A DNA stretch of 64,000 nucleotides, taken from assembly GCA_022181065.1 (NCBI GenBank), contig BQMY01000074.1, positions 186,001-250,000 of the forward strand, written 5' to 3'. Positions 33,005 to 47,815 of the stretch are shown here, one piece after another. The first letter of the stretch is position 1; each line of letters starts with the position of its first letter. A program made the position numbers and the translations under genes. The notes under the pieces are model-generated. The model saw only the letters and a list, made by a program, of their open reading frames with translations, searched no databases and had not been told where the DNA came from. The DNA comes from Melioribacteraceae bacterium (lineage in GTDB: Bacteria > Bacteroidota > Ignavibacteria > Ignavibacteriales > Melioribacteraceae).

Positions 33005-33412
33005 ATTTTTTACTTTATGGTAAGTGAGAGCAGCAGCGATACAACTTTTCAATTCCTTTTCCGGCACTGTTTCATCAAGTTTGAATAGTATCGCGCGTGT
33101 ACCTTCGTATCTGAACATATCGCCAAATACCTCTTTGAAAGTAATGACCAGCTTGCTTGTACATTTGAAGTAAATAGCATAATATTCCGGATTTTTTTCT
33201 TTCCAGTCTATGCGAATTGTGCTCCCTGTTTTTGTAAGAAAGCTGGGTTCACCCCATTTTAGTGTTTCCTCGAGAGAGTTGATTCCATCAGTTTCTTTAG
33301 CTGATTCTATAATAAGTCTTCGCAGGTTATATAATTTCTCCTGAATATTTTCAGGATACCTCTTAATAACATCTTCAACTTCCGAATTGGAATTCAGGAT
33401 TAGATTTCCCAT
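32984..33412 (-). CDS. DUF1801-family protein
   Basis: The 142-aa protein has the DUF1801 pattern: YPENIQEKLYNLRRLIIESA, ETLKWGEPSFLTKTGSTIRI, YAIYFKCTSKLVITFKEVFG and KELKSCIAAALTYH. The family is small and soluble, of unknown function, with a YdhG-like fold. It overlaps the DNA methyltransferase gene by 38 nt in a different frame, so it is translationally coupled to it. That overlap is long for this genome, and the coupling may be fortuitous. Confidence 0.8.
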   Translation of the reverse strand: MGNLILNSNSEVEDVIKRYPENIQEKLYNLRRLIIESAKETDGINSLEETLKWGEPSFLTKTGSTIRIDWKEKNPEYYAIYFKCTSKLVITFKEVFGDMFRYEGTRAILFKLDETVPEKELKSCIAAALTYHKVKNIPNLGL

Positions 33413-34355
33413 CTACTTTCTCTTTCTTTTGTGCTGATAGCGTATTTCGTTCCCAGAAAACCCCGTCAAAATAGCCCTGGATTGAAGTATCATTTTCTGC
33501 CATCTCCAGGCGCTTATAACTGAGCATATTATACTCCTCGGAAAGCTCAACTCCATAGTAACGGCGATTCAATTTTTTAGCCACAACCGCTGTTGTCCCC
33601 GAACCAAGGAAAGGATCGAAAACAACATCATTTTCATTGGTACTTGCCAGAATTAGTTTTGCGACCAATTTTTCAGGTTTTTGCGTCGGGTGATCAGTAT
33701 TTTCGGGCATACTCCAGAATGGTACGCTTATGTCATTCCAGAAATTACTCGGGTGCGTGAGTCGAAAATTCCCATCAGCAGATTCGTCCCAATCTTTCGG
33801 TTTTCCATTTTCCCGATAGGGCGCCAACACCTTACGTTTCATCTTGATATCATCCAGATTAAAGGTATAGTTATCACTTTTCGTTGCGAACCAGATATCC
33901 TCATGAGAGTTCTTGAAATTTGTTTTTGCGCCGCGCCCCTTTTCCCTTTCCCATGTAATTCTGTTTCTAACTTTGAGGTAATTTTTGATCACCTGATAAA
34001 TAGAAATGGAAGTCTTCCAGTCCCCGCATACATATACCGATGCATCATCTTTAAGTGAGGGCATTAATAGTTTGAACCATGAATCAAACCATTCCGTATA
34101 TTTTTCTTCAGTAGTTTTGTTAAAAACATTACTCTCGAACTTCCTGCTTAGATTATAGGGGGGATCAAGAAAAAGGAGGTCTACTGAATTTTCGGGTACA
34201 AATTTTATTGCCTCGAAAATATCACCACATAATATTGTATCCGGTTTGATTTTATTTTTCAAGGATTCGGTGTGGATTATTTTGGGGGATAAGGTTTTGA
34301 TCTCATCCTCTGATAATACTATGGTTCTGTTTCCTGGCGCTCTGCTTTTGCTCAT
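33375..34355 (-). CDS. Beta-class DNA N6-adenine methyltransferase (orphan)
   Basis: The 326-aa protein has catalytic motif IV DPPY at 64-67 (LLFLDPPYNLS), a target-recognition stretch (about 110-225), then motif X-like TDHPTQKPEKLVAKLI and motif I FDPFLGSGTTAVVAKKL (about 246-262). The order IV-TRD-I defines the beta class (as in CcrM and HinfI), and DPPY favours N6-adenine. No restriction endonuclease is visible on either side, so it is probably a solitary regulatory or epigenetic methyltransferase. The C-terminal tail after residue 300 is lysine-rich. Confidence 0.9.
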   Translation of the reverse strand: MSKSRAPGNRTIVLSEDEIKTLSPKIIHTESLKNKIKPDTILCGDIFEAIKFVPENSVDLLFLDPPYNLSRKFESNVFNKTTEEKYTEWFDSWFKLLMPSLKDDASVYVCGDWKTSISIYQVIKNYLKVRNRITWEREKGRGAKTNFKNSHEDIWFATKSDNYTFNLDDIKMKRKVLAPYRENGKPKDWDESADGNFRLTHPSNFWNDISVPFWSMPENTDHPTQKPEKLVAKLILASTNENDVVFDPFLGSGTTAVVAKKLNRRYYGVELSEEYNMLSYKRLEMAENDTSIQGYFDGVFWERNTLSAQKKEKVDGKSNPEFQFGS

Positions 34356-35016: not shown

Positions 35017-35865
35017 TTAGTCACTAATCCTTGTCAGATTATAAACTCTTTTAGTATGTCCCGGCTGAAAAATCATATTATATTCAGCTATACCCTTTTC
35101 TTCTGAAAGAGAAAGATCATACTGGAAATATTCTTCAATATAACCGGTGAGATTTATCACCCCTGATTGGCTGCGCGGATTGTAATTTGAAAACTCAAGG
35201 TACAAAAATAACGGCCCCACAAGAACGTAAGGTTGATCAAAGACGATACGGTCGGCATATTCATAGACAGTGAACGAAAGCGTAGTGTCGATATCCGTTT
35301 CGGAATAGATTTCCCAGACAAAGCTGCCGTCATTATATATAAGTTCTGTACGAATTCCGGTAATTACCTCCGTTATAAGATACTCATTCCTCTGGTCTGT
35401 TGTTTCAACTAATTCAATATTCCAGACAATGTCACAACTATCCCGGGTTTCCTCGTTTGCATAAGTTTCAACCTGCTGGAAATTATAGAATTGAACATCA
35501 CCATCAGAAAGAGGGAAATAATTGATGATCTTAACCAATTCTACATCAAATACCAAATCGCTAAATACAATTACTGTTGTGTCCAGTCTTTGATATCCAT
35601 CAATCTCAAACGCAATCTTGCGAGTTCCTTCTCCTTCAAGTTCAATGATATATTTCCCATCGGCATCGCTGGAGGCAGCGAGTGTGTCTCCGATAAATAT
35701 ATCCACTCCTGACAATAAATCAGTCCCATCTGATACACTTCCGGAGACAGTTAGTTTTACTATTTCCGGAGTTATCTCTGGTTCAGTCTCAACGGGAACA
35801 CTCTCATCAGAGCAGGATATCCCTATCAGCGCAAATATTACAATTAGATATTTAACTTTTTTCAT
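35017..35865 (-). CDS. Lipoprotein with carboxypeptidase-regulatory-like domain fused to a shared C-terminal domain
   Basis: The 282-aa protein has a lipobox GISC and a short acidic linker (VPVETEPEITPE). A CarboxypepD_reg-like domain spans about 38-112 (VSGSVSDGTDLLSGVDIFIG). A C-terminal domain of about 165 residues begins INYFPLSDGDVQFYNFQQVE. The second domain matches almost the whole of the next gene (197 aa), with the same SCDIVWNIE, YNDGSFVWE, DTTLSF, PYVLVGPLF and PGHTKRVYNLTRI landmarks. Surface or periplasmic location is expected. No function is known for this domain. Confidence 0.72.
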   Translation of the reverse strand: MKKVKYLIVIFALIGISCSDESVPVETEPEITPEIVKLTVSGSVSDGTDLLSGVDIFIGDTLAASSDADGKYIIELEGEGTRKIAFEIDGYQRLDTTVIVFSDLVFDVELVKIINYFPLSDGDVQFYNFQQVETYANEETRDSCDIVWNIELVETTDQRNEYLITEVITGIRTELIYNDGSFVWEIYSETDIDTTLSFTVYEYADRIVFDQPYVLVGPLFLYLEFSNYNPRSQSGVINLTGYIEEYFQYDLSLSEEKGIAEYNMIFQPGHTKRVYNLTRISD

Positions 35866-35916
35866 AATGCCCTCATATAGTAATTACGTCTGTTTATTAC
35901 TTTGTTTCAAACGGAC

Positions 35917-36510
35917 TTAATAACCGACTCGAGTCAGATAATAAAATCGCTTGTGATGCCCTGGCTCGTACGATATTACTAAATCGACTATCCCAATTTC
36001 CTTTTCAAGGGTGATCTCATAAGTTAAATATTCATCGAGAACGCCGGATAGCTTAACTTGCGTCTCCTCGCCCAATGATCTTAAATGTTCGAATTCCAGC
36101 CCCCAAAAGATCGGTCCAACATATACAATAGGCTGCTCAAACTGGATCAGGTTTGAAGATTCACGAATATTAAATGAAAGAGTGGTGTCGATCTGATGAA
36201 TTCCAACAGTTTCCCAAACCCCTGCTCCATCGTTATAAATTTGTTCTGTACTGACCCCGGAAATAATCTGGGTGACACGGGAAATGGTTATCCCATCAAT
36301 ATCTCCTTGCGATTCAATATTCCATATCACATCGCAACTGTCTGTTTTCAGTTCATTCTGATATTGATCGATCTGCTTGAATTTATAATTTTGCACATCA
36401 CCATCGACCAAAGGAAAATAATTTAATGTATCAGATTCGGTGATGTTTGACTCGCTATCACATCCAACCAAAAAGATGATAAGTAGGCTAAAAAGATATA
36501 TTGATTTCAT
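35917..36510 (-). CDS. Lipoprotein, single-domain paralogue of the neighbouring gene
   Basis: The 197-aa protein has a lipobox FLVGC. Its body matches the C-terminal domain of the 282-aa gene downstream: NYFPLVDGDVQNYKFKQID, SCDVIWNIE, IYNDGAGVWE, HQIDTTLSF, IVYVGPIFWGLEF and YEPGHHKRFYYLTRVGY. A short lipoprotein linker leads directly into this domain. The pair arose by tandem duplication. The fused domain was gained by one copy or lost by the other. No function known. Confidence 0.72.
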   Translation of the reverse strand: MKSIYLFSLLIIFLVGCDSESNITESDTLNYFPLVDGDVQNYKFKQIDQYQNELKTDSCDVIWNIESQGDIDGITISRVTQIISGVSTEQIYNDGAGVWETVGIHQIDTTLSFNIRESSNLIQFEQPIVYVGPIFWGLEFEHLRSLGEETQVKLSGVLDEYLTYEITLEKEIGIVDLVISYEPGHHKRFYYLTRVGY

Positions 36511-37567: not shown

Positions 37568-38245
37568 TTGAAAACAATTTTCAAAATTTATTCCGCAATC
37601 ATTCTTTTAATAAGAAAGAACAAGTTTATTTGCCGGGTTCTGTTTGGTATTAAACCGGGTGTAAGCAATTTCGAAAATTATTGGGACTGGACAACACTCC
37701 GGTTGAAATCGGTATTAAGAACGCTGGATCTTTCAAATAAAAATATACTTGATATGGGTACCGGACCTTATGCCCTTCTGTCCGTTTATTTAAAAAATCG
37801 TTTTCAGATTCAATCCGTTACAGCTGCTGATTATCTTGATAGTATTATTTTCAATGCTGCACTGCAGCCCGGAGCAAAAGGGATAGAATTTATAAAGACC
37901 AATCTGTTTGATAATCTGGATGCTAAATTTGATATCATTCTATTCAATGCGCCTTATATTTCTGACAGAGCTGGTAGCCAATTGGGGATTTATGACACAG
38001 AACTCTCGCGGGAAAGATGGTCGGGAGGAGAAGACGGGGTGAAAACAATAAGCCGATTCTTATCCGAACTACACAATTTTCTCACTACGGATGGAGTATG
38101 TCTGCTTGGAATAAACCATTTCTATCTCAAAGATCAATCTTTAAGGAAAGAGCTTAAAAAATTCCCTCAACTTAATTTATTTTCATATAGTAAAAATCGA
38201 GTGACTCACTCAGGAGTATATATTTTGCGAAGGTCAGACTTATGA
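37568..38245 (+). CDS. Class I methyltransferase with NAPY motif
   Basis: The 225-aa protein starts at TTG with an AGGA ribosome-binding site 4 nt upstream. It shows SAM motif I NILDMGTGPYALLSVYL and a catalytic NAPY in DIILFNAPYISDRAGS. These are features of HemK/PrmC- and RsmC-like methyltransferases (N/DPPY) that methylate amide or exocyclic amine nitrogens. It begins an operon: its stop overlaps the PP-loop gene by 4 nt (ATGA). The substrate is unknown and probably linked to the product of the next two genes. Confidence 0.82.
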   Translation: MKTIFKIYSAIILLIRKNKFICRVLFGIKPGVSNFENYWDWTTLRLKSVLRTLDLSNKNILDMGTGPYALLSVYLKNRFQIQSVTAADYLDSIIFNAALQPGAKGIEFIKTNLFDNLDAKFDIILFNAPYISDRAGSQLGIYDTELSRERWSGGEDGVKTISRFLSELHNFLTTDGVCLLGINHFYLKDQSLRKELKKFPQLNLFSYSKNRVTHSGVYILRRSDL

Positions 38246-39327
38246 GGTGTACACGTTGTATTTTACCCGACTCAATTCCGGGTATTTCATTTGATGAAAA
38301 AGGCGTATGCAATTTTTGTAATGACAATTTCCCGAATTACAATCCGAAAGGAGATGATTTTCTACAGAAAATCCTGCGTGAAGGATTGCGCGAAAATTCC
38401 GGAGCTGATTGTCTTGTAGGTTTAAGCGGGGGGAAAGATAGTACCTACACTTTGCTGAAATTAAAAGAACAATTTGGTATGCGGGTTGAAGCATTCACAT
38501 ATATTCATGAAGGGACTACCGGATTTTCCCTGGAAAACGCGAAAAAAGTCTGCAATCAATTTAGCATTAAACATCATATCGTTTCGCTGAAAAATGAAGC
38601 ACATCTCAAAACTTTTCACGGATATTTCAAAGCATTCAGTAAATCTCCTTCATCTACTACTGCCGGAATGACATGTGTAGCATGTAAAAACCTGCACATA
38701 CTTGGATATGATATTGCAGCAGAACGAAATATCCCATTTATCGTTTGGTCTACAAGTCCGCTCGAATACTCACCATTTTTGGCTCTTAAATACAACGGAG
38801 GTGAAAAGGAACAATTTAAACGTGAGGGAAATGTTAAAGGAGCGTACTTGCTTCTGAAAGAGATGGTAAATTCGTTTGATTTCCCCAAAACCTTTCTGAC
38901 AAATTTGAAAACCAGCCTGAACGGATGCCTCGCTGCTTTTCCAACATCGGGATATCTGCTGAAAAAATATCCTGATATAAGTCCGTTATTCTTCTACGAA
39001 TATCACAACTGGGTTCCTGACGACATAATCGAATATATTACTCAAAATTCCGATTGGCGAGTTCCCGAGGAGATTGATGACTGGCATTCAGATTGTCTTT
39101 TTAACTTTTTCAAGGAATATATGTTCCTTCATCTTTATAAAGCAAGCTACACCGATGCTTTCCTCAGTAATCAAATAAGATACGGATTGATTTCAAGGGA
39201 GGAGGCTATTATTAAATTGAACAAAAATAAAAAACAGAATAAAGAGGGGATTTTCAGAGCAATTGAATCTCTCGGACTAAATGATTTGCAAAAAAGGATT
39301 GATTCTACAGTTTTTACGGAATATTAA
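38242..39327 (+). CDS. Zinc-ribbon PP-loop ATPase (N-acetyl sugar amidotransferase-like)
   Basis: The 361-aa protein has an N-terminal zinc ribbon (Cys3, Cys6, Cys23, Cys26 in MRCTRCILPD and VCNFCND) and the PP-loop motif SGGKDS at 62-67. A further CVACKN pair follows near 150. PP-loop enzymes adenylate a carbonyl or hydroxyl before attack by a nitrogen or sulfur nucleophile. The nearest named family is WbpG/PseA-like N-acetyl sugar amidotransferase, but those normally need a HisH/HisF-like ammonia source that is absent here. It sits between a methyltransferase (4-nt overlap) and a carbamoyltransferase (2-nt gap). Confidence 0.82.
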   Translation: MRCTRCILPDSIPGISFDEKGVCNFCNDNFPNYNPKGDDFLQKILREGLRENSGADCLVGLSGGKDSTYTLLKLKEQFGMRVEAFTYIHEGTTGFSLENAKKVCNQFSIKHHIVSLKNEAHLKTFHGYFKAFSKSPSSTTAGMTCVACKNLHILGYDIAAERNIPFIVWSTSPLEYSPFLALKYNGGEKEQFKREGNVKGAYLLLKEMVNSFDFPKTFLTNLKTSLNGCLAAFPTSGYLLKKYPDISPLFFYEYHNWVPDDIIEYITQNSDWRVPEEIDDWHSDCLFNFFKEYMFLHLYKASYTDAFLSNQIRYGLISREEAIIKLNKNKKQNKEGIFRAIESLGLNDLQKRIDSTVFTEY

Positions 39328-39329
39328 AA

Positions 39330-41132
39330 TTGAAGATACTAGGAATTAACGCTTTCGGACAAAATCCTTCAGCAGCACTGGTGATTGATGGTGAATTGAC
39401 AGGTTTTTCCCACGAGGAAAGATTTAACCGCCTTAAAAACTCGCATAACCTATTTCCATCCTATACAATTACCTGGCTTCTCAATTCGAACAATCTGTTG
39501 TTGGAGGATGTCGATTATATCGCTTTTAACTGGGATTGCACAAAGTACCCCTGGAAAAGGGCAAAGCAACTCCTTTCCACCAAAATCAATCTGAGCGGCA
39601 CAAAAAACAACTACGGGAAATCGGACAACTCTTCCAATGTTTATTCTGCCCTCGAATATCTGCTGAATTATACTCCGGGTAATGTTATAAATAAAATAAA
39701 ACGTGAATTAAGAAGAAGTGGTCATAAAGGGAAAATTCCTAAAATAGAGTTTGTTGATCACCACCTTTCACACGCCTTTCAAGCGTACTATCACTCACCA
39801 TTTTCAGATTGTCTGGTTCTTGTGGCCGATGGTCACGGTGAAGAAAATTGTGTTAGCGGCTATTTTGTGGAAGATGGGAGTTTTAAGAAAATCACCAACT
39901 ATAAAGTACCTTACTCGTTGGGATGGTTTTATGGTGGAATGTCGGCATATCTTGGATTTTATCCTGACAGGGATGAAGGTAAACTAATGGGTCTTGCTGC
40001 TTATGGCAAAAAAAGAGCGGCGGAGAATCCTTATCTTGAAGTTATTGATGAGATGATCAAAATTTCTGATAAAGAGTTCGAGTTAAATCCATTCTTTTTC
40101 AAAATCGGCGCGAAAGATTATAATTACAGTTACACAAATTCTCTGGTAAAATTTCTTACAGCCATTGATCCTGAACTTCAGCCTATCAGTGTAAATGAAA
40201 AAGTGATAAAAGATGGCAATGTAATTAATAAGTATTTACAGGAAAAATATATAGACCTGGCATTTGCAGTTCAGTCAAAACTTGAAGGAGCTCTTAATGC
40301 TGTAATCTCGCAAATGGTAGATAGTGCTCCGTTCAGAAACCTTGCTTATGCCGGTGGTGTCGCGATGAATTGCAAAGCAAACCGTGTCATAGCTGATCAT
40401 CCCGGGATCGACCGACTGTTCGTACACCCCGCCTCATCAGATGATGGTAGCGCGATTGGTGCCGCATTCTATATCGCTAAACACTTCGATTCTCTCCGAC
40501 ATGTGCCCCTAACTCACACACAATATGGAGCTGGTTTTAACAATGACGAGATACAAAAAATCCTAGATAACTGCGGTGTGAATTACCAGAAAACCAACTA
40601 TATTTCTACTGATGCAGCCAAACTGCTAACCGAGGGTAAAATAATCGGATGGTTTCAGGGTAATGCCGAGATGGGAGCGAGAGCTCTGGGCGGAAGAAGT
40701 ATTTTAGCCAATCCATTCGAATCCGAAATAAAAAACAAAATTAACTCAAATGTAAAATACCGTGAAATCTGGCGCCCCTACTGCCCTTCGATCCTGAAAG
40801 GGAACAGTAAACGATATCTCAATGATTCGGAAGATGCGCGTTTTATGATAGTCGCGGATGAGGCTACGAAAGAATTTGCAGATACAGCACCCGCTGTAGT
40901 GCATGTCGATAATACAGTTCGCCCTCAATTAGTGGATAAAGAGGTTCTGCCTGAATATGGTAATTTGATTGAAGATTTTGGTCATCTGACAGGTCATCCG
41001 GTAGTTCTCAACACCTCATTCAACGTAAGAGGTGAGCCGATTACAAACAACCCGTACGACGCGATAAGAACATTTTACTCCACAGGGCTGGACGCGTTGG
41101 CAATAGGGGATTTCATAGTAAAAAAGAGATAA
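39330..41132 (+). CDS. NodU/CmcH/TobZ-type O-carbamoyltransferase
   Basis: The 600-aa protein starts at TTG. The N-terminal Kae1-like half has LGINAFGQNPSAALVIDGE, metal-binding His144 and His148 in FVDHHLSHAFQAYYHS, and VLVADGHGEEN. It continues with LAYAGGVAMNCKANRVI and HPASSDDGSAIGAAF. The C-terminal half has IIGWFQGNAEMGARALGGRS and VVLNTSFNVRGEPI, typical of the family's second domain. These enzymes use carbamoyl phosphate and ATP to put a carbamoyl group on a sugar or other hydroxyl. The full family length is present. It ends the triad, with nothing co-directional for several kilobases. Confidence 0.93.
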   Translation: MKILGINAFGQNPSAALVIDGELTGFSHEERFNRLKNSHNLFPSYTITWLLNSNNLLLEDVDYIAFNWDCTKYPWKRAKQLLSTKINLSGTKNNYGKSDNSSNVYSALEYLLNYTPGNVINKIKRELRRSGHKGKIPKIEFVDHHLSHAFQAYYHSPFSDCLVLVADGHGEENCVSGYFVEDGSFKKITNYKVPYSLGWFYGGMSAYLGFYPDRDEGKLMGLAAYGKKRAAENPYLEVIDEMIKISDKEFELNPFFFKIGAKDYNYSYTNSLVKFLTAIDPELQPISVNEKVIKDGNVINKYLQEKYIDLAFAVQSKLEGALNAVISQMVDSAPFRNLAYAGGVAMNCKANRVIADHPGIDRLFVHPASSDDGSAIGAAFYIAKHFDSLRHVPLTHTQYGAGFNNDEIQKILDNCGVNYQKTNYISTDAAKLLTEGKIIGWFQGNAEMGARALGGRSILANPFESEIKNKINSNVKYREIWRPYCPSILKGNSKRYLNDSEDARFMIVADEATKEFADTAPAVVHVDNTVRPQLVDKEVLPEYGNLIEDFGHLTGHPVVLNTSFNVRGEPITNNPYDAIRTFYSTGLDALAIGDFIVKKR

Positions 41133-42873: not shown

Positions 42874-45279
42874 CTATTTTAGAAGAATAATTTTCCTTAT
42901 GAGAGAATTGCGATTATTTTTCGTATCCGTCATCACGAGTCGAACAATGTAAATCCCGGATGTATTCCCAAGAGAATTGTATTTATAATAATGGATGCCT
43001 CTTTCCATCTCGCCCAGATTTTCCTGATATATATTTTCGCCTAAAACATTGTAAACCGCAACCTCAACATCAGCGTTTTCAGGAAGTGTATATTTGAATG
43101 TAGTTGTGCCATTAAACGGATTCGGGAAATTTTGAGCAAGGGCAAAAACCAATGGTGGATCGCTGCTAATAGATGTTGGACCCGCGTAGGTTAATTTCCG
43201 AACCTCACTATAAATACTTTCACTTGCAAAATTTACTGCTTTCAATCTCCAATGGAAATCACCGGAAAAACTAAAGGAACTATACTCAAGTGTATCTGAA
43301 AATACTTGCAGGATTTCCGGATTTTCAAACTGGTCTGATTCTGAAATCTCAAATTGGTAGTACATGTTGTACGGGATACTTTTTTCCCAACTGAAAACAA
43401 CACTTGAATCAACAATCACCGCATTGTTTTGAGGATATAATGATTCCGGTGCTGAAGGAGATGCGTTAAACGCAAGTGGTGATTGAGTAACGTACAATTC
43501 TCCATAAGGATTTGCGGCATATAAATAGTTCTCGGAATCAAAATAACATAACTCTACTCCCTCAGGAATTTGGGAACCGATGTCCTGCCAAATATCATCC
43601 TCTCCAAGCAACCATAGTGTGGTACCGTTTATGACAGCTAACTGATTATCACCACTAAATTGAATATCCTTTATTTCGGTAAAACTTTCGTTAAGTGGAT
43701 GCCAATGATTTATTGAGAGATTATTATACAACAATCCCTCGCTATTAGCTGCAAGAATATTCTCGAAGTTATCAACACAGAGCTTAACAATTAAGGAATC
43801 TGAAAGTCCATCATTTAGCTTTGAAAAATGTTGTGTGCTTGCCGGATAATGGAATACACCAAAATCATTACCATACCCGTCTGAAAAAGTAGTGAATACT
43901 CTTTCTCCTTTTGATATAACCATATCGGATCCAATATTTCTCGGCGCACCTGTATAGTACGGTCCAGCTTTCCATGTTGAGCCAAAATTATCAGTGTACC
44001 AGTAGCCGTCAATCCAATTGGAGGCAAACGGTTCATACCGGCATATCGAGACCCTATTGTTCCTTGCAGCTATAACCATACCGTAAGCGAATCCATCAAA
44101 AAAACCCCTTCCGCTCCAGGTTTCACCTCTATCACTGGAAAAATAATAAATCCTGCCGCAGCCTTGCGCAAACATCATGGAATCCTTCAATATAAAACTT
44201 CCTGAACCGGCGCAGAATATTTCCGGATCAAGCTGTGACCACTCCCTGGTTTGAAAATTTTGCTTGAAAAACCCTTTTGATGTGTTATAAAATATATCAC
44301 CGTCATTATTAAGCAATATCTTTCCCGGTGAAGCTTCCATGATCCCTTTACCGGATATATTTGCAGAGTTCACATCCAACTCATACAATATTTGTGAAGT
44401 ACCACATAATATTTTATCAGATACAAATTCTACACATTTTGTAGAGATCCCCTCGAGAGCGGTATTGTATAGCTGCCAGGCCCAAGTAGCTTCATTAAAA
44501 TAATAGAGTCCCAGTTTAGTTGTCATGTAAAGAACTGATTCGAAAGAATAAAATTTTACACGCCCCAGGTTTTCCACATCGACACCATTATTCAGGGGCT
44601 GCCACTCTTCTCCTCCATCCGTTGAATAGTAAAAGGAATTAAAGGATTGAACCAATAAAGTATCAGCCGATTTAGCAAAAATAGTATATAGATAGGTATC
44701 ATGAAAACGGGCACTATCAATCTCGGACCACGTCTCGCCCAGATCGTCCGAGTGATAAAAGCCATAGTATCCTGAAATAAAAAGCTCGTCTCCAGCAGAA
44801 TCTATGCTTTCTACAAAAATGTGAGCGGGTGGGTCTAAAATATTTACATACACCCAACTTAAACCATTATCTGTGGAACGTAAAAGATGGCTACCATACG
44901 CTTTAAAGATATCACCTGATGACAGTAAAGTTACATGGGATCCTCCCTCATCTGAAATGTAATTCCACGAAAGCCCGTTATCTGTGCTTGAATAAAGCGC
45001 ACCCATTAAATTTAGTAAAATTTCACCATCATGAGTTTTAAGAATATACCGGGTTCCATTATTTCCAGAAGAATTTGTTCCGTAAATAACGGGAGTCCAT
45101 GTTTGCCCCGAGTTTTCAGATCGGAAGAGAGAACCCCTTTTTGTCCCCGCTAAAATGATACTATCGTTGATGGATAAAATTTCAACTACTTCCGCACGGG
45201 ATGGAGGATTTAATTTTTCCCATACAACTTGTGGAAATATTAATGCATTGAGTAGTAAAAAAAGTAAAACAGATTTCAT
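42874..45279 (-). CDS. Secreted Asp-box beta-propeller protein with T9SS sorting domain, copy 1
   Basis: The 801-aa protein has a signal peptide (about 1-17) followed by some 600 residues of Asp-box repeats (SxDxGxTW): for example SENSGQTWTPV, STDNGLSWNYI, STDGGEEWQPL and SSDRGETWSG. These predict one or two propellers of the sialidase/sortilin or YCF48 type. An FnIII-like domain spans about 610-705. The T9SS domain (FALAQNFPNPFNGTTTFKYT) ends the chain. The protein should be exported to the surface. It is a tandem paralogue of the next gene, with the C-terminal 90 residues nearly identical. Confidence 0.85.
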   Translation of the reverse strand: MKSVLLFLLLNALIFPQVVWEKLNPPSRAEVVEILSINDSIILAGTKRGSLFRSENSGQTWTPVIYGTNSSGNNGTRYILKTHDGEILLNLMGALYSSTDNGLSWNYISDEGGSHVTLLSSGDIFKAYGSHLLRSTDNGLSWVYVNILDPPAHIFVESIDSAGDELFISGYYGFYHSDDLGETWSEIDSARFHDTYLYTIFAKSADTLLVQSFNSFYYSTDGGEEWQPLNNGVDVENLGRVKFYSFESVLYMTTKLGLYYFNEATWAWQLYNTALEGISTKCVEFVSDKILCGTSQILYELDVNSANISGKGIMEASPGKILLNNDGDIFYNTSKGFFKQNFQTREWSQLDPEIFCAGSGSFILKDSMMFAQGCGRIYYFSSDRGETWSGRGFFDGFAYGMVIAARNNRVSICRYEPFASNWIDGYWYTDNFGSTWKAGPYYTGAPRNIGSDMVISKGERVFTTFSDGYGNDFGVFHYPASTQHFSKLNDGLSDSLIVKLCVDNFENILAANSEGLLYNNLSINHWHPLNESFTEIKDIQFSGDNQLAVINGTTLWLLGEDDIWQDIGSQIPEGVELCYFDSENYLYAANPYGELYVTQSPLAFNASPSAPESLYPQNNAVIVDSSVVFSWEKSIPYNMYYQFEISESDQFENPEILQVFSDTLEYSSFSFSGDFHWRLKAVNFASESIYSEVRKLTYAGPTSISSDPPLVFALAQNFPNPFNGTTTFKYTLPENADVEVAVYNVLGENIYQENLGEMERGIHYYKYNSLGNTSGIYIVRLVMTDTKNNRNSLIRKIILLK
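42975..43146 (-). repeat. Direct repeat within the T9SS domain, copy 1
   Basis: This approximately 172-nt stretch encodes most of the sorting domain of the 801-aa protein. It is nearly identical at nucleotide level to 45503-45673, far more similar than the rest of the two genes. Confidence 0.8.
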
Positions 45280-45406
45280 AACATTGCCCTATTTTCTAAT
45301 GCTTGTCTGCAAGATTTTCTTGAAATTGATAACCTGGAAGACACGGTGACAATTTAATTTTCAACTCTGTAAAGTGAAACGGGTAGTTCTATGAAAGATA
45401 TTTAGT

Positions 45407-47815
45407 CTACTTCAATAGAATAATTTTTTTCGTTAATGTTTGTTTTTCCTGTCCTGATATCGTCAACCGGAATATAAAAATACCTGAGCTATTTCCTACC
45501 GAGTTGTATTTATAGTAATGGATGCCTCTTTCCATCTCGCCCAGATTTTCCTGATAAATAATTTCACCTAAAACATTATAAACCGCAACTTCTACACCAG
45601 CGTTTTCAGGAAGTGTATACTTGAATGTGGTTGTGCCATTAAAAGGATTGGGGAAATTCTGCGCAAGGGCAAACTCCAAAGGCATGTGATCATCCACTGT
45701 AGTAGTTTCAAAATACTTAAATTTTCTAACATCACTATATTGGCTTTCCCCGGCAAAATTTTCACCTTTTACACGCCAGTAATATGTAGTGTATTCTTCA
45801 AAAAAATCGAGTTTCATGCTATCACGGAATGTGGTAAACACCATTTTATCCGTGAAATCCTCAGATGTTGATATTTCAAGGGTATTGTTGGTCACATAAC
45901 CCAGATTATTCGTCCATTTAAAGATAATTTCAGGATTAAAAATCTCTTCGTTAACGCTCGGGTAATCAAGAGTAGGTGAGATTGTTGTTTCCTCAACCCT
46001 CAATGGCGTCTCACCGCGATATACCTCACCCCTGTTATTGATAATATTCGGGTAATTTTCTTCATCCAGTTTGATATGAACGATTGGTCCTAAATCTTCG
46101 GTATCGATTTGCTGCCACAGTTTATTGTTGTCGTAGGTGTATAGTTTATTATCGCTCACTACTGCAAGAAGGTTTCCGTTACTTGACTGGATATCAGTAA
46201 CAGCGGTTAACTCCGGATTGATGATTTTCCACGGATCCGCCTCCACACTACCTTCCCATAATCCTTCCGGTGTTCCCGCAAAAATGTTCCGTTTGTTATC
46301 GACACCAAGTTTGATACTGGAAATATCTGTTAAATTTGTATTGAAAACATGTACATTTTTTTCTGCAGGTTTCTGCCAAAATATCCCCATTTTTTCATGA
46401 TGAGCCCAATCAAAAACTGAAATAACAAACGTGTCATCTCCAAGATTTACAATATCATTGAAATCAAACAGTCCAAAATCAGAATACTCTTGTTCTACTC
46501 TGCTCCAGGTTGCACCATTGTTTTCAGAAAAAAAGAATCCATCCACCCATATTTCAGAATATGGATCAAATCTCGACATATAAAACCCGGAGTTGATTGC
46601 TGATGGTATAATTGATGTAACATATCCGTCATTGGTACTTTTTTCAATCCAGCTTGCGCCATTATCTTCAGAGGCGTAAAAGACTTTTGATTTGCTCTGA
46701 GCGATTATAACGGTTTCATTTAGGGAAAAGTCGGTTGCGCCTTCGGGGAAAATTTCCTCTCCGAGTAATTCGGCATTAAAGGTTTCCAGATCATATCTGA
46801 AGAAGCCTTGGTCACTGTTCACAAATAGATATCTATCATTTTTAAGTAACGATTTTCGGGGGAAATAATCTGAGACTCCTTTACCAAGTCTTACCGATCC
46901 TGATTCATCCCCGACAAACAAACCGTAGTTTGTCGTATAGCAAATTTTGTCTTTAACAAAAACGAGTTTCTTGATATTCACATTCTTTACATCTTCGTTT
47001 AGGAGGTTCCAGGCACCTGCTAAATTATCGGAGTAATATATTCCGGTCAATGTTGAAAGATAGGCTCTTGATCCATCGAAAAATGTTAGAATTCTTACAT
47101 ATGTATTCGGTGCGAGTCCAGATTTATTTTCTGTCCAGTTTATACCGTCATCAGTCGAATAAAACACACTTTTGTATGTTGTAAGGAGTAGAGTTGATCC
47201 GCCCAATGATGAGATATCGACAAGGGTAGTGTTTGATAATTCCGGGGTGGGAACTGGGACCCAACTTTGACCCCCGTCTGAAGAATAATTAAGAAACTTA
47301 TCTCCCCATAAAAATAATCTGTCTTCAAACGATTTCAGTCCGGTAATAGTATTATCGAAATGTTTTAGCAATTGCCATGTATTACCCTGATCTGTGGATT
47401 TGTATAACACTTTATCACTAATGGCAAATAAATCAGAATTGACTGACGTAAATCGATCGCAGTATATATCCGAAGGGACATAATTCCACGAATGACCATT
47501 ATCCTCACTCTCGAACAGTCCATTCATATGCACAGAGTTTATGACAGCAAATATTTTACCATCAGGAGTGCGGGTAAAACCTGAAACACCCTTATATGTA
47601 TCGGGTGAATATTTAACCGATTTAACTGTTTTCCAATTTTTACCGGCATCCTCGGAGAGAAAAATTGAGCCTTTTTTTGAACCAGCCAGTAGCGTGGTTT
47701 CATTGACAGCAAAAAGCGCACTGATATTTGATATGAATGGAGATTCAATTTTCACCCAGTTATTCTGTGAAAAAAAAGAAAAAATGAAGAGCAGAAAAAG
47801 AAAAATAGATTTCAT
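45407..47815 (-). CDS. Secreted Asp-box beta-propeller protein with T9SS sorting domain, copy 2
   Basis: The 802-aa protein has a signal peptide (about 1-17, ending FFSQ) and then Asp-box repeats such as SEDAGKNWKTV, SEDNGHSWNYV, STDQGNTWQLL, SSDGGQSWVPV and STDDGINWTEN. An Ig/FnIII-like segment follows at about 605-705, then the T9SS domain. Gene length, domain order and spacing match the neighbouring copy, but the propeller sequence has diverged strongly. Such proteins are cell-surface binding or scaffolding modules; no sialidase catalytic residues (RIP motif) were found. Confidence 0.85.
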   Translation of the reverse strand: MKSIFLFLLFIFSFFSQNNWVKIESPFISNISALFAVNETTLLAGSKKGSIFLSEDAGKNWKTVKSVKYSPDTYKGVSGFTRTPDGKIFAVINSVHMNGLFESEDNGHSWNYVPSDIYCDRFTSVNSDLFAISDKVLYKSTDQGNTWQLLKHFDNTITGLKSFEDRLFLWGDKFLNYSSDGGQSWVPVPTPELSNTTLVDISSLGGSTLLLTTYKSVFYSTDDGINWTENKSGLAPNTYVRILTFFDGSRAYLSTLTGIYYSDNLAGAWNLLNEDVKNVNIKKLVFVKDKICYTTNYGLFVGDESGSVRLGKGVSDYFPRKSLLKNDRYLFVNSDQGFFRYDLETFNAELLGEEIFPEGATDFSLNETVIIAQSKSKVFYASEDNGASWIEKSTNDGYVTSIIPSAINSGFYMSRFDPYSEIWVDGFFFSENNGATWSRVEQEYSDFGLFDFNDIVNLGDDTFVISVFDWAHHEKMGIFWQKPAEKNVHVFNTNLTDISSIKLGVDNKRNIFAGTPEGLWEGSVEADPWKIINPELTAVTDIQSSNGNLLAVVSDNKLYTYDNNKLWQQIDTEDLGPIVHIKLDEENYPNIINNRGEVYRGETPLRVEETTISPTLDYPSVNEEIFNPEIIFKWTNNLGYVTNNTLEISTSEDFTDKMVFTTFRDSMKLDFFEEYTTYYWRVKGENFAGESQYSDVRKFKYFETTTVDDHMPLEFALAQNFPNPFNGTTTFKYTLPENAGVEVAVYNVLGEIIYQENLGEMERGIHYYKYNSVGNSSGIFIFRLTISGQEKQTLTKKIILLK
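45503..45673 (-). repeat. Direct repeat within the T9SS domain, copy 2
   Basis: Partner of the repeat at 42975-43146. The preserved similarity suggests gene conversion or selection on the sorting domain. Confidence 0.8.

Follow-up and report, generated by a model that had tools for sequence, protein, structure and literature searches.

Two kinds of described enzymes are close to the PP-loop enzyme considered here. N-acetyl sugar amidotransferases (WbuX, WbpG, PseA and LpNASAT, 8wex) act on the N-acetyl groups of sugars and carry a tetracysteine motif, CXXCXn[GN]XCXXC, together with an SGGXDS loop (PMC10607449; papers are cited here and below for excerpts of their text). The sulfur transferases TtuA, NcsA and LarE of the T. 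maritima type have SGGxDS followed by CxxC and a distant cysteine. In T. maritima LarE this CXXC-C set holds a [4Fe-4S] cluster that is needed for sulfur transfer, and the sulfur donor Cys176 of LarE lies one residue from the third cysteine of that set (PMC9283937); the NcsA cluster is held by Cys142, Cys145 and Cys233 only (PMC10067955). Here we describe three adjacent genes in a 64,000-nt stretch of DNA from a Melioribacteraceae bacterium (contig BQMY01000074.1, positions 186,001 to 250,000; the whole stretch is referred to below as the window), which encode a methyltransferase (MT), a PP-loop enzyme (PP) and a carbamoyltransferase (CT). The three enzymes make up a conserved, self-contained module that recurs in other genomes. 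Among relatives of its PP, those with a CxxC...C motif stand alone, whereas all but one of those without the motif have a glutaminase.

Two described pathways share features with the module. In Nod factor synthesis, a deacetylase (NodB), an S-adenosylmethionine (SAM)-dependent methyltransferase (NodS) and a carbamoyltransferase (NodU) carry out deacetylation, N-methylation and carbamoylation on one amino sugar (PMC5080398). The module differs in that its MT is HemK-like and that a deacetylase is present in only two of its copies. To our knowledge, the NodB/NodS/NodU set contains no PP-loop enzyme. In legionaminic acid synthesis in Legionella and Campylobacter, a methyltransferase (ORF 8/PtmH) acts on the amidotransferase product, an acetimidoyl group that becomes N-methylated; this system differs from the module in lying in a large lipopolysaccharide cluster with NeuB, and the word "carbamoyl" is absent from the main text of its description (PMC3766260).

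The original prediction, made from the window sequence, read the three packed genes (4-nt MT/PP overlap and 2-nt PP/CT gap) as encoding a NAPY methyltransferase, a zinc-ribbon SGGKDS ATPase and a full-length carbamoyltransferase; the coordinates (Table 1), Pfam domains and TobZ match agree with this. The MT scores above the Pfam MTS cut-off (26.6 bits, cut-off 23) and under those of the HemK/PrmC models (PrmC, 41.7 of 199.1 bits; HemK2, 60.7 of 87 bits), and it has NAPY where HemK/PrmC glutamine methyltransferases have NPPY. In the CT, the Pfam domains Carbam_trans_N and Carbam_trans_C are both complete. The protein matches structures of TobZ, the tobramycin O-carbamoyltransferase (E-value: 2.2e-88), and retains H144, H148, D167 and D371, the counterparts of the TobZ metal ligands; with the NodU equivalog NF041651 it scores 120.5 bits, under the cut-off of 1000. 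The PP passes three Pfam PP-loop cut-offs (QueC, 26.2/22 bits; NAD_synthase, 22.7/21 bits; tRNA_Me_trans HUP domain, 22.1/20.6 bits). It carries both parts of the sugar amidotransferase signature (C3, C6, G21-V-C23 and C26; S62-S67), but is under the cut-off of 203.2 bits of the WbuX model TIGR03573 (118.3 bits; 106.9 bits for the PP of genome G462, described below). It also has the SGGXDS and CXXC-C elements (C145xxC148, C285) of the [4Fe-4S] PP-loop sulfur transferases, invariant in the triads, and shares with TtuA and NcsA an N-terminal CxxC...CxxC, which in those enzymes is a zinc site (PMC10067955).

Joint conservation of the three genes

Relatives of the CT are frequent (79 of the 97 nearest genomes); the closest, with 42% identity, is in genome G024 and lies with NeuB, PIG-L and a cytidylyltransferase (CTP_transf_3). 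The PP had 17 matches at 1e-10 in these 97 genomes, its own included; the others were 24-39% identical, and the longest were mostly proteins of approximately 670-680 aa with a glutaminase part. The MT had five, its own included, the other four being weak and of PrmC size. Across the phylum (395 genomes), seven PP matches, own included, were obtained at 1e-25. Within the class (391 genomes) the PP gave 20 matches at 1e-20, one of which led to G462, where MT, CT and PP are side by side. When a profile of the window and G462 MTs was compared with the 391 genomes of the class, 18 matches were obtained at 1e-12, six of them at 3.5e-29 or better (the window genome, G462, G564, G491, G458 and G641). 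G564, G491 and G458 have the order MT-PP-CT with a shorter PP of a different kind, while in G641 the MT alone is present, its 6.3-kb contig also carrying genes for a radical SAM protein and a sugar transferase. MT matches of 12 genomes of the class (E-values: 8.4e-15 to 9.0e-13) were set aside as PrmC-like by size and score, as were those of G815, G794 and G873 (frames of 283-322 aa).

The short PP matched five loci in the genome contig collection, those of G564 and G491 and new ones in Zixibacteriota (L121, genome G706), Planctomycetia (L123, genome G707) and Zipacnadia (L124). G707 has the order MT-PP-polysaccharide deacetylase-CT. L121 begins inside the PP and runs on into a CT with one in-frame stop codon; the G706 MT ends another contig that holds the start of the PP and overlaps L121 by exactly 99 bases. 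In L124 the PP has the motif of the shorter kind but lacks a neighbouring CT or MT, and no MT match was obtained in that genome; this PP, with the three cysteines (L124 10001-10786), lies in what appeared by eye to be an exosortase/exopolysaccharide cluster. MT searches identified G706 and G711 among 39 genomes of the L121 phylum (at 1e-22), and G707 and G986 among 392 genomes of the Planctomycetia phylum; the three weaker matches of PrmC size in the latter phylum are those of G815, G794 and G873, set aside above. The MT was found in 3 of 12 genomes of the G462 family, all three already known. G711 has the order CT-PIG-L-MT-PP, and its PP is 45-46% identical to that of the window. This copy (L133 1248-7135, contig C220) is in a phage-like tail region, flanked in antisense by a gene resembling those for baseplate hubs on one side and one for a tail tape measure protein on the other. 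In G986 (L138 8806-11250), a CT-MT pair is separated by 3 nt with no PP found, and its MT has the longest branch among these MTs.

The MT subfamily is thus represented in 10 genomes from three phyla, and MT, PP and CT occur together in eight of them, including G706, in which the genes are split over two overlapping contigs and the CT is broken by the stop. Gaps between triad genes range from -8 to 22 nt in the seven triads measured, and the gene order differs. The 10 module-type MTs are split from five PrmC-like proteins at 100/100 in a tree in which the MT group itself is poorly resolved, with three long branches; N-x-x-Y is kept in eight of the nine aligned members (L115 has NPPA). That the triad might be unique to this genome, which the original prediction named as grounds for doubting it, was rejected, since seven other genomes have the same three genes together.

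The module exists in two versions. Type A (window, G462 and G711) has a PP of 361-373 aa with the fold of sugar amidotransferases, as judged from the 8wex match of the window protein. Type B (G564, G491, G458, G706 and G707) has a PP of approximately 240-265 aa that is closest to YcfA of 6-thioguanine synthesis (9kq6, E-value: 1.2e-19; fold Z-score 21.5, 207 residues aligned, root-mean-square deviation [rmsd] 2.6), the next fold family being 4-thiouridine synthetase (Z 15.2). Agreement between the two PP profiles is weak (hhalign probability 79%). In the second of two CT trees, from both of which the interrupted G706 protein was left out, type A CTs group with those of G024 and G986 and type B CTs form another group (100/98 and 100/100). 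The first tree took in two of ten further CTs and the second the other eight, without those two and without any phage CT. The claim that these trees prove two separate assemblies was rejected: the unrooted three-group tree (type A with G024/G986, type B, household) fits a module assembled twice as well as one in which the PP was swapped, and shows merely that the two types use distant CTs. Under either history, the PP changes from one family to another and yet the same MT stays with a PP-loop enzyme and a carbamoyltransferase, which we regard as good evidence for a shared pathway.

Searches beyond these genomes found relatives of single components. The window PP alone gave nothing in the genome and viral contig collections, nor did the CT alone or the MT and type B PP alignments in viral contigs, or either PP type in phage records. 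Two viral loci have CTs and no triad in their open reading frame (ORF) lists: one (L093 1710-5202) carries a complete CT plus a second whose N- and C-terminal parts are encoded by separate genes, and the other (L094 1938-5583) has CTs solely as split genes. In plasmids, the type A PP matched 11 records (three surroundings examined: two proteins of approximately 600-650 aa in sugar clusters and one nonribosomal peptide synthetase) and the G462 PP six, two of them shared with the type A PP and among the surroundings examined there. The MT matched two and six plasmid records, and neither of the two surroundings examined had a CT or PP. The type B PP matched four, and three surroundings were examined. 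In one, from S. chromogenes, the genes are ordered as in the 6-thioguanine operon tgsA-F. In another plasmid, from Alicyclobacillus acidoterrestris (L117 6989-9699), PP, NUDIX, DMT transporter and HAD genes are ordered like the staphylococcal 6-thioguanine operon with no adjacent desulfurase; this organism is a possible 6-thioguanine producer. Vibrio coralliilyticus plasmid pSNUTY1 has a YcfA-like PP (L119 7004-7663) followed by three hypothetical genes. YcfA is the closest solved relative of the type B PP, and TgsB is among its plasmid relatives. However, both lack CxxC...C, and TgsB adjoins a cysteine desulfurase where the triads have CT and MT. When the ORF lists of L113, L114, L116, L121 and L123 were inspected by eye, without a profile search, no NUDIX or desulfurase neighbours were noticed.

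Cysteine motif and glutaminase partners

An alignment of 35 relatives of the window PP (counting the window PP itself) was combined with a check of their neighbours; 31 loci were used, with those repeating a place in a longer locus (L002-L004, L009, L010, L074, L077, L079, L081 and others) omitted. At the sites of CxxCK and DC in the window PP, 18 of the 35 have letters of the MAGDK/GDG type. In 16 of these the protein is fused to a class II glutaminase, in another the glutaminase is encoded next to it, and in the eighteenth a glutaminase fragment lies adjacent (L086, 96 aa, seen by eye and not by phmmer). Another ten have PTD/HES-type letters; nine of them have HisH and HisF within 3.4 kb, and L141 has none in its 15 kb. 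CxxCK and DC are present in six, and a seventh, L145, has its own version (FCWHC, VDC) and was placed in the CxxC...C group from its letters because it is gapped in the alignment. A glutaminase is therefore fused or nearby in 27 of 28 relatives without CxxC...C, and within view in 0 of 7 with it. The expectation that relatives of this PP normally have HisH/HisF or a fused glutaminase, and that the triad PP does not, was borne out. Three solo sugar-amidotransferase-like PPs with CxxCK and DC (L053 7180-8256, L054 7304-8419 and L085 2165-3256) had no glutaminase found and no CT or MT noticed alongside.

The missing ammonia partner likely has a chemical reason, as the CxxC...C pattern, which is that of Fe-S-dependent sulfur transferases, suggests that sulfur rather than nitrogen is inserted. 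C145xxC148K149 and C285 are present in all three type A triads, and C95xxC98K99 and C190 in all six type B PP proteins, five of which come from triads. In the predicted model of the window PP (m93db7c4577c6; predicted local distance difference test score 87.8), 8 of 16 alignment rows with L. plantarum LarE end with an offset that would place C285 on Cys176 (three at 286/177, four at 289/180 and one at 287/178); of the remainder, six are off by one or two residues and two run on further. With the type B model, eight of the 16 L. plantarum LarE rows end exactly at C190/Cys176. Alignment by range ends is weak, though two separate models give the same answer. Identity to TtuA, NcsA and LarE is 14-18%, and the type A PP has a long insertion between its second and third cysteines.

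Proposed chemistry and rival explanations

Our preferred reading, to which we assign slightly less than an even chance, is that the module is a conserved, self-contained cassette whose enzymes thionate, carbamoylate and methylate a single substrate. The most likely substrate is an amino sugar, N-acetylated or free, that forms part of a glycan or glycolipid. PP-loop enzymes usually begin by adenylating their substrate. The PP would use ATP to adenylate a carbonyl oxygen of the substrate, in either an N-acetyl group or a newly added carbamoyl group, and AMP would then be displaced, not by ammonia but by sulfur carried on a [4Fe-4S] cluster with C145, C148 and C285 as its ligands, to give a C=S group. 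The CT would form a carbamoyl-adenylate and carbamoylate a hydroxyl, and the MT would methylate a nitrogen or sulfur. The genes, their conservation as a set, the cysteine motif and its tie to the lack of a glutaminase are shown here. We infer the Fe-S cluster, sulfur as the nucleophile, the order of steps and the class of substrate; we think that the PP inserts sulfur. The substrate is probably an amino sugar, because enzymes of the type A fold act on sugar N-acetyl groups and because a deacetylase is present in two copies (PIG-L in G711, polysaccharide deacetylase in G707), a GT2 glycosyltransferase follows the CT in G564, and NeuB, PIG-L and a cytidylyltransferase are near the G024 CT. The window copy, near which no sugar gene was noticed, may instead have a small-molecule target. 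Rather doubtful is a more specific version of the proposal, in which the cassette makes sulfur-containing sugars and its PP slot is filled from two families: the type A PP, related to sugar amidotransferases, would have exchanged ammonia for sulfur bound to an Fe-S cluster and would convert the N-acetyl or carbamoyl group on an amino sugar into a thioamide or thiocarbamate that CT and MT decorate further. We know of no thioacetamido or thiocarbamoyl sugars made in this way, and no paper was found among open-licence PubMed Central articles on a module joining a carbamoyltransferase, a sugar amidotransferase or PP-loop enzyme and a methyltransferase.

Several observations weigh against the preferred reading. 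The window PP is far under the cut-offs of the NcsA (23.7 of 500 bits), TtuA (23.5 of 450 bits) and LarE (17.4 of 150 bits) models. Over its full length, its model fits best to 8wex, an N-acetyl sugar amidotransferase (Z 23.0, 310 residues, rmsd 4.0); NcsA (Z 13.3) and LarE (Z 13.1) score much lower, and argininosuccinate synthases (Z 14.5) and the nitrile synthetase ArtA (Z 14.0) also slightly outscore the sulfur transferases. C145, C148 and C285 may hold zinc. CxxC...C is missing from YcfA and from the S. chromogenes PP, both encoded in thioguanine operons, and therefore the motif is not needed for thionation. When the ORF lists were read by eye, no desulfurase for cysteine was noticed next to the triads; no small ORF ending in GG lies beside seven of eight loci, and that at L084 appears coincidental. 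Four of the seven motif proteins (L145, L085, L133 and L084) are on contigs of just 3 to 8.4 kb, and the 35 PP relatives are akin, representing perhaps three or four lineages rather than independent cases. Four of the 10 MT genomes (window, G462, G706 and G707) were reached through the PP, a route biased towards triads; the MT alone led to the other six, which comprise four with the triad, G986 with CT-MT and G641 with just the MT. The in-frame TAA in the G706 CT (L121 1869-1871) is either a real break or an assembly error. Finally, the lack of a noticed sugar gene near the window copy (ORF lists, by eye) sits poorly with a sugar substrate.

The 8wex fold and the WbuX score are what would be expected if the PP were instead an N-acetyl sugar amidotransferase forming an acetamidino sugar, its ammonia being either free or supplied by a distant glutaminase, with the MT N-methylating the amidine like PtmH/ORF 8 and the CT carbamoylating. 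The N-methylated acetimidoyl groups of legionaminic acid (PMC3766260) and the deacetylases and NeuB close to some copies are consistent with this explanation as well, which we regard as somewhat unlikely. The distribution of glutaminases argues against it, as do the MAGDK/GDG or PTD/HES letters of partner types at the positions where the triad has CxxCK and DC, and in type B triads the PP is YcfA-like and not a sugar amidotransferase. Neither ammonia nor sulfur would be needed if the PP joined a substrate amine to an activated carbonyl, in the manner of argininosuccinate synthase or TilS, or turned an amide into a nitrile like QueC or ArtA. The fold scores of argininosuccinate synthases and ArtA fit such chemistry, and the carbamoyl group made by the CT would be a natural acceptor. 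However, CxxC...C in both PP types and the strength of the YcfA match over 4-thiouridine synthetase in type B are left unexplained, and we consider it distinctly unlikely.

It is very unlikely that the cassette modifies a nucleoside or nucleic acid in the way of TtuA, NcsA, QueC and HemK-like enzymes. Folds of tRNA-thiolase PP-loop enzymes do match, the PP passes the tRNA_Me_trans HUP domain and QueC cut-offs, type B relatives make 6-thioguanine and the G711 copy lies between phage tail genes; but in the Pfam comparison, no nucleic-acid-binding domain other than the shared PP-loop domain was over cut-off in the three proteins, and near the copies examined no base-modification genes were noticed, while sugar-related genes are near several. 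Adjacency through chance or hitch-hiking, with no common pathway, is close to negligible in our estimation. The operon is patchy and no other copy of this PP or MT was found in the 97 nearest genomes, but the same families occur together in eight genomes of three phyla with identities down to 24%, and the close spacing survives altered gene order in the seven triads measured.

The original prediction of a self-contained three-enzyme pathway is partly supported by these results. The module recurs and is wider than could be seen from the window alone, but the missing ammonia partner, an apparent gap in the pathway, is probably not one in a PP with CxxC...C. If the sequence rule holds more widely, genes annotated as "N-acetyl sugar amidotransferase" and "QueC-like" could be divided into nitrogen and sulfur candidates. 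If the sulfur reading is true, bacteria make overlooked thionated, carbamoylated sugars or small molecules, and 6-thioguanine shows that products of such a kind can be potent antimetabolites.

Features and surroundings of the window locus

Table 1. Genes and motifs of the window triad (positions in the window)
Feature	Position	Strand	Description or evidence
MT	37568-38245	+	225 aa, TTG start; class I SAM-dependent methyltransferase, HemK-like; marker of the module
MT N127-A-P-Y130	37946..37957	+	alignment of MT members
PP	38242-39327	+	361 aa; zinc-ribbon PP-loop ATPase with CxxC...C motif
PP tetracysteine zinc-ribbon span C3xxC6...C23xxC26	38248..38319	+	alignments
PP-loop S62GGKDS67	38425..38442	+	alignments
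PP C145xxC148-K149, proposed first two Fe-S ligands	38674..38688	+	invariant in 3 type A triads; absent from 28 partner-type relatives
PP D284-C285, proposed third Fe-S ligand, at place of LarE Cys176	39091..39096	+	alignments; range ends against LarE structures
CT	39330-41132	+	600 aa, TTG start; TobZ/NodU-type O-carbamoyltransferase, both domains complete
CT H144...H148, two of four presumed TobZ-type metal ligands	39759..39773	+	aligned to TobZ; invariant
CT D167, third presumed TobZ-type metal ligand	39828..39830	+	aligned to TobZ; invariant
CT D371, fourth presumed TobZ-type metal ligand	40440..40442	+	aligned to TobZ; invariant

The genes on either side of the triad are on the opposite (-) strand. 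No glutaminase is fused to the window PP. The Pfam class I glutaminase domain (GATase) has six matches in the genome, none of them on the window's contig (C74); class II enzymes elsewhere in the genome were not searched for. Promoter and terminator scans gave a yield not above that of shuffled sequence. The statement that no glycosyltransferase or acyl carrier is nearby holds for the ORF lists inspected by eye and for the Pfam domains of seven proteins. Given the deacetylases and glycosyltransferase of other copies, the case against a glycan link is weaker than first stated. Membership of the window copy in an O-antigen cluster was rejected from its surroundings as judged by eye. A phage or defence origin was set aside as unlikely for this copy: no phage genes were noticed, and in a search with PADLOC models the MT alone matched (mad2, 37.5 bits over residues 48-221), with none for PP or CT.

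Elsewhere in the window, two adjoining related proteins of approximately 800 aa each (42874-47815) have a common C-terminal sorting-like stretch, FALAQNFPNPFNGTTTFKYTLPENA. Two adjoining similar lipoprotein-like genes are present at 35017-36510 (- strand), and one gene beyond this pair is an adenine-specific-like DNA methyltransferase gene (33375-34355, - strand), both assignments being judged from the letters only.

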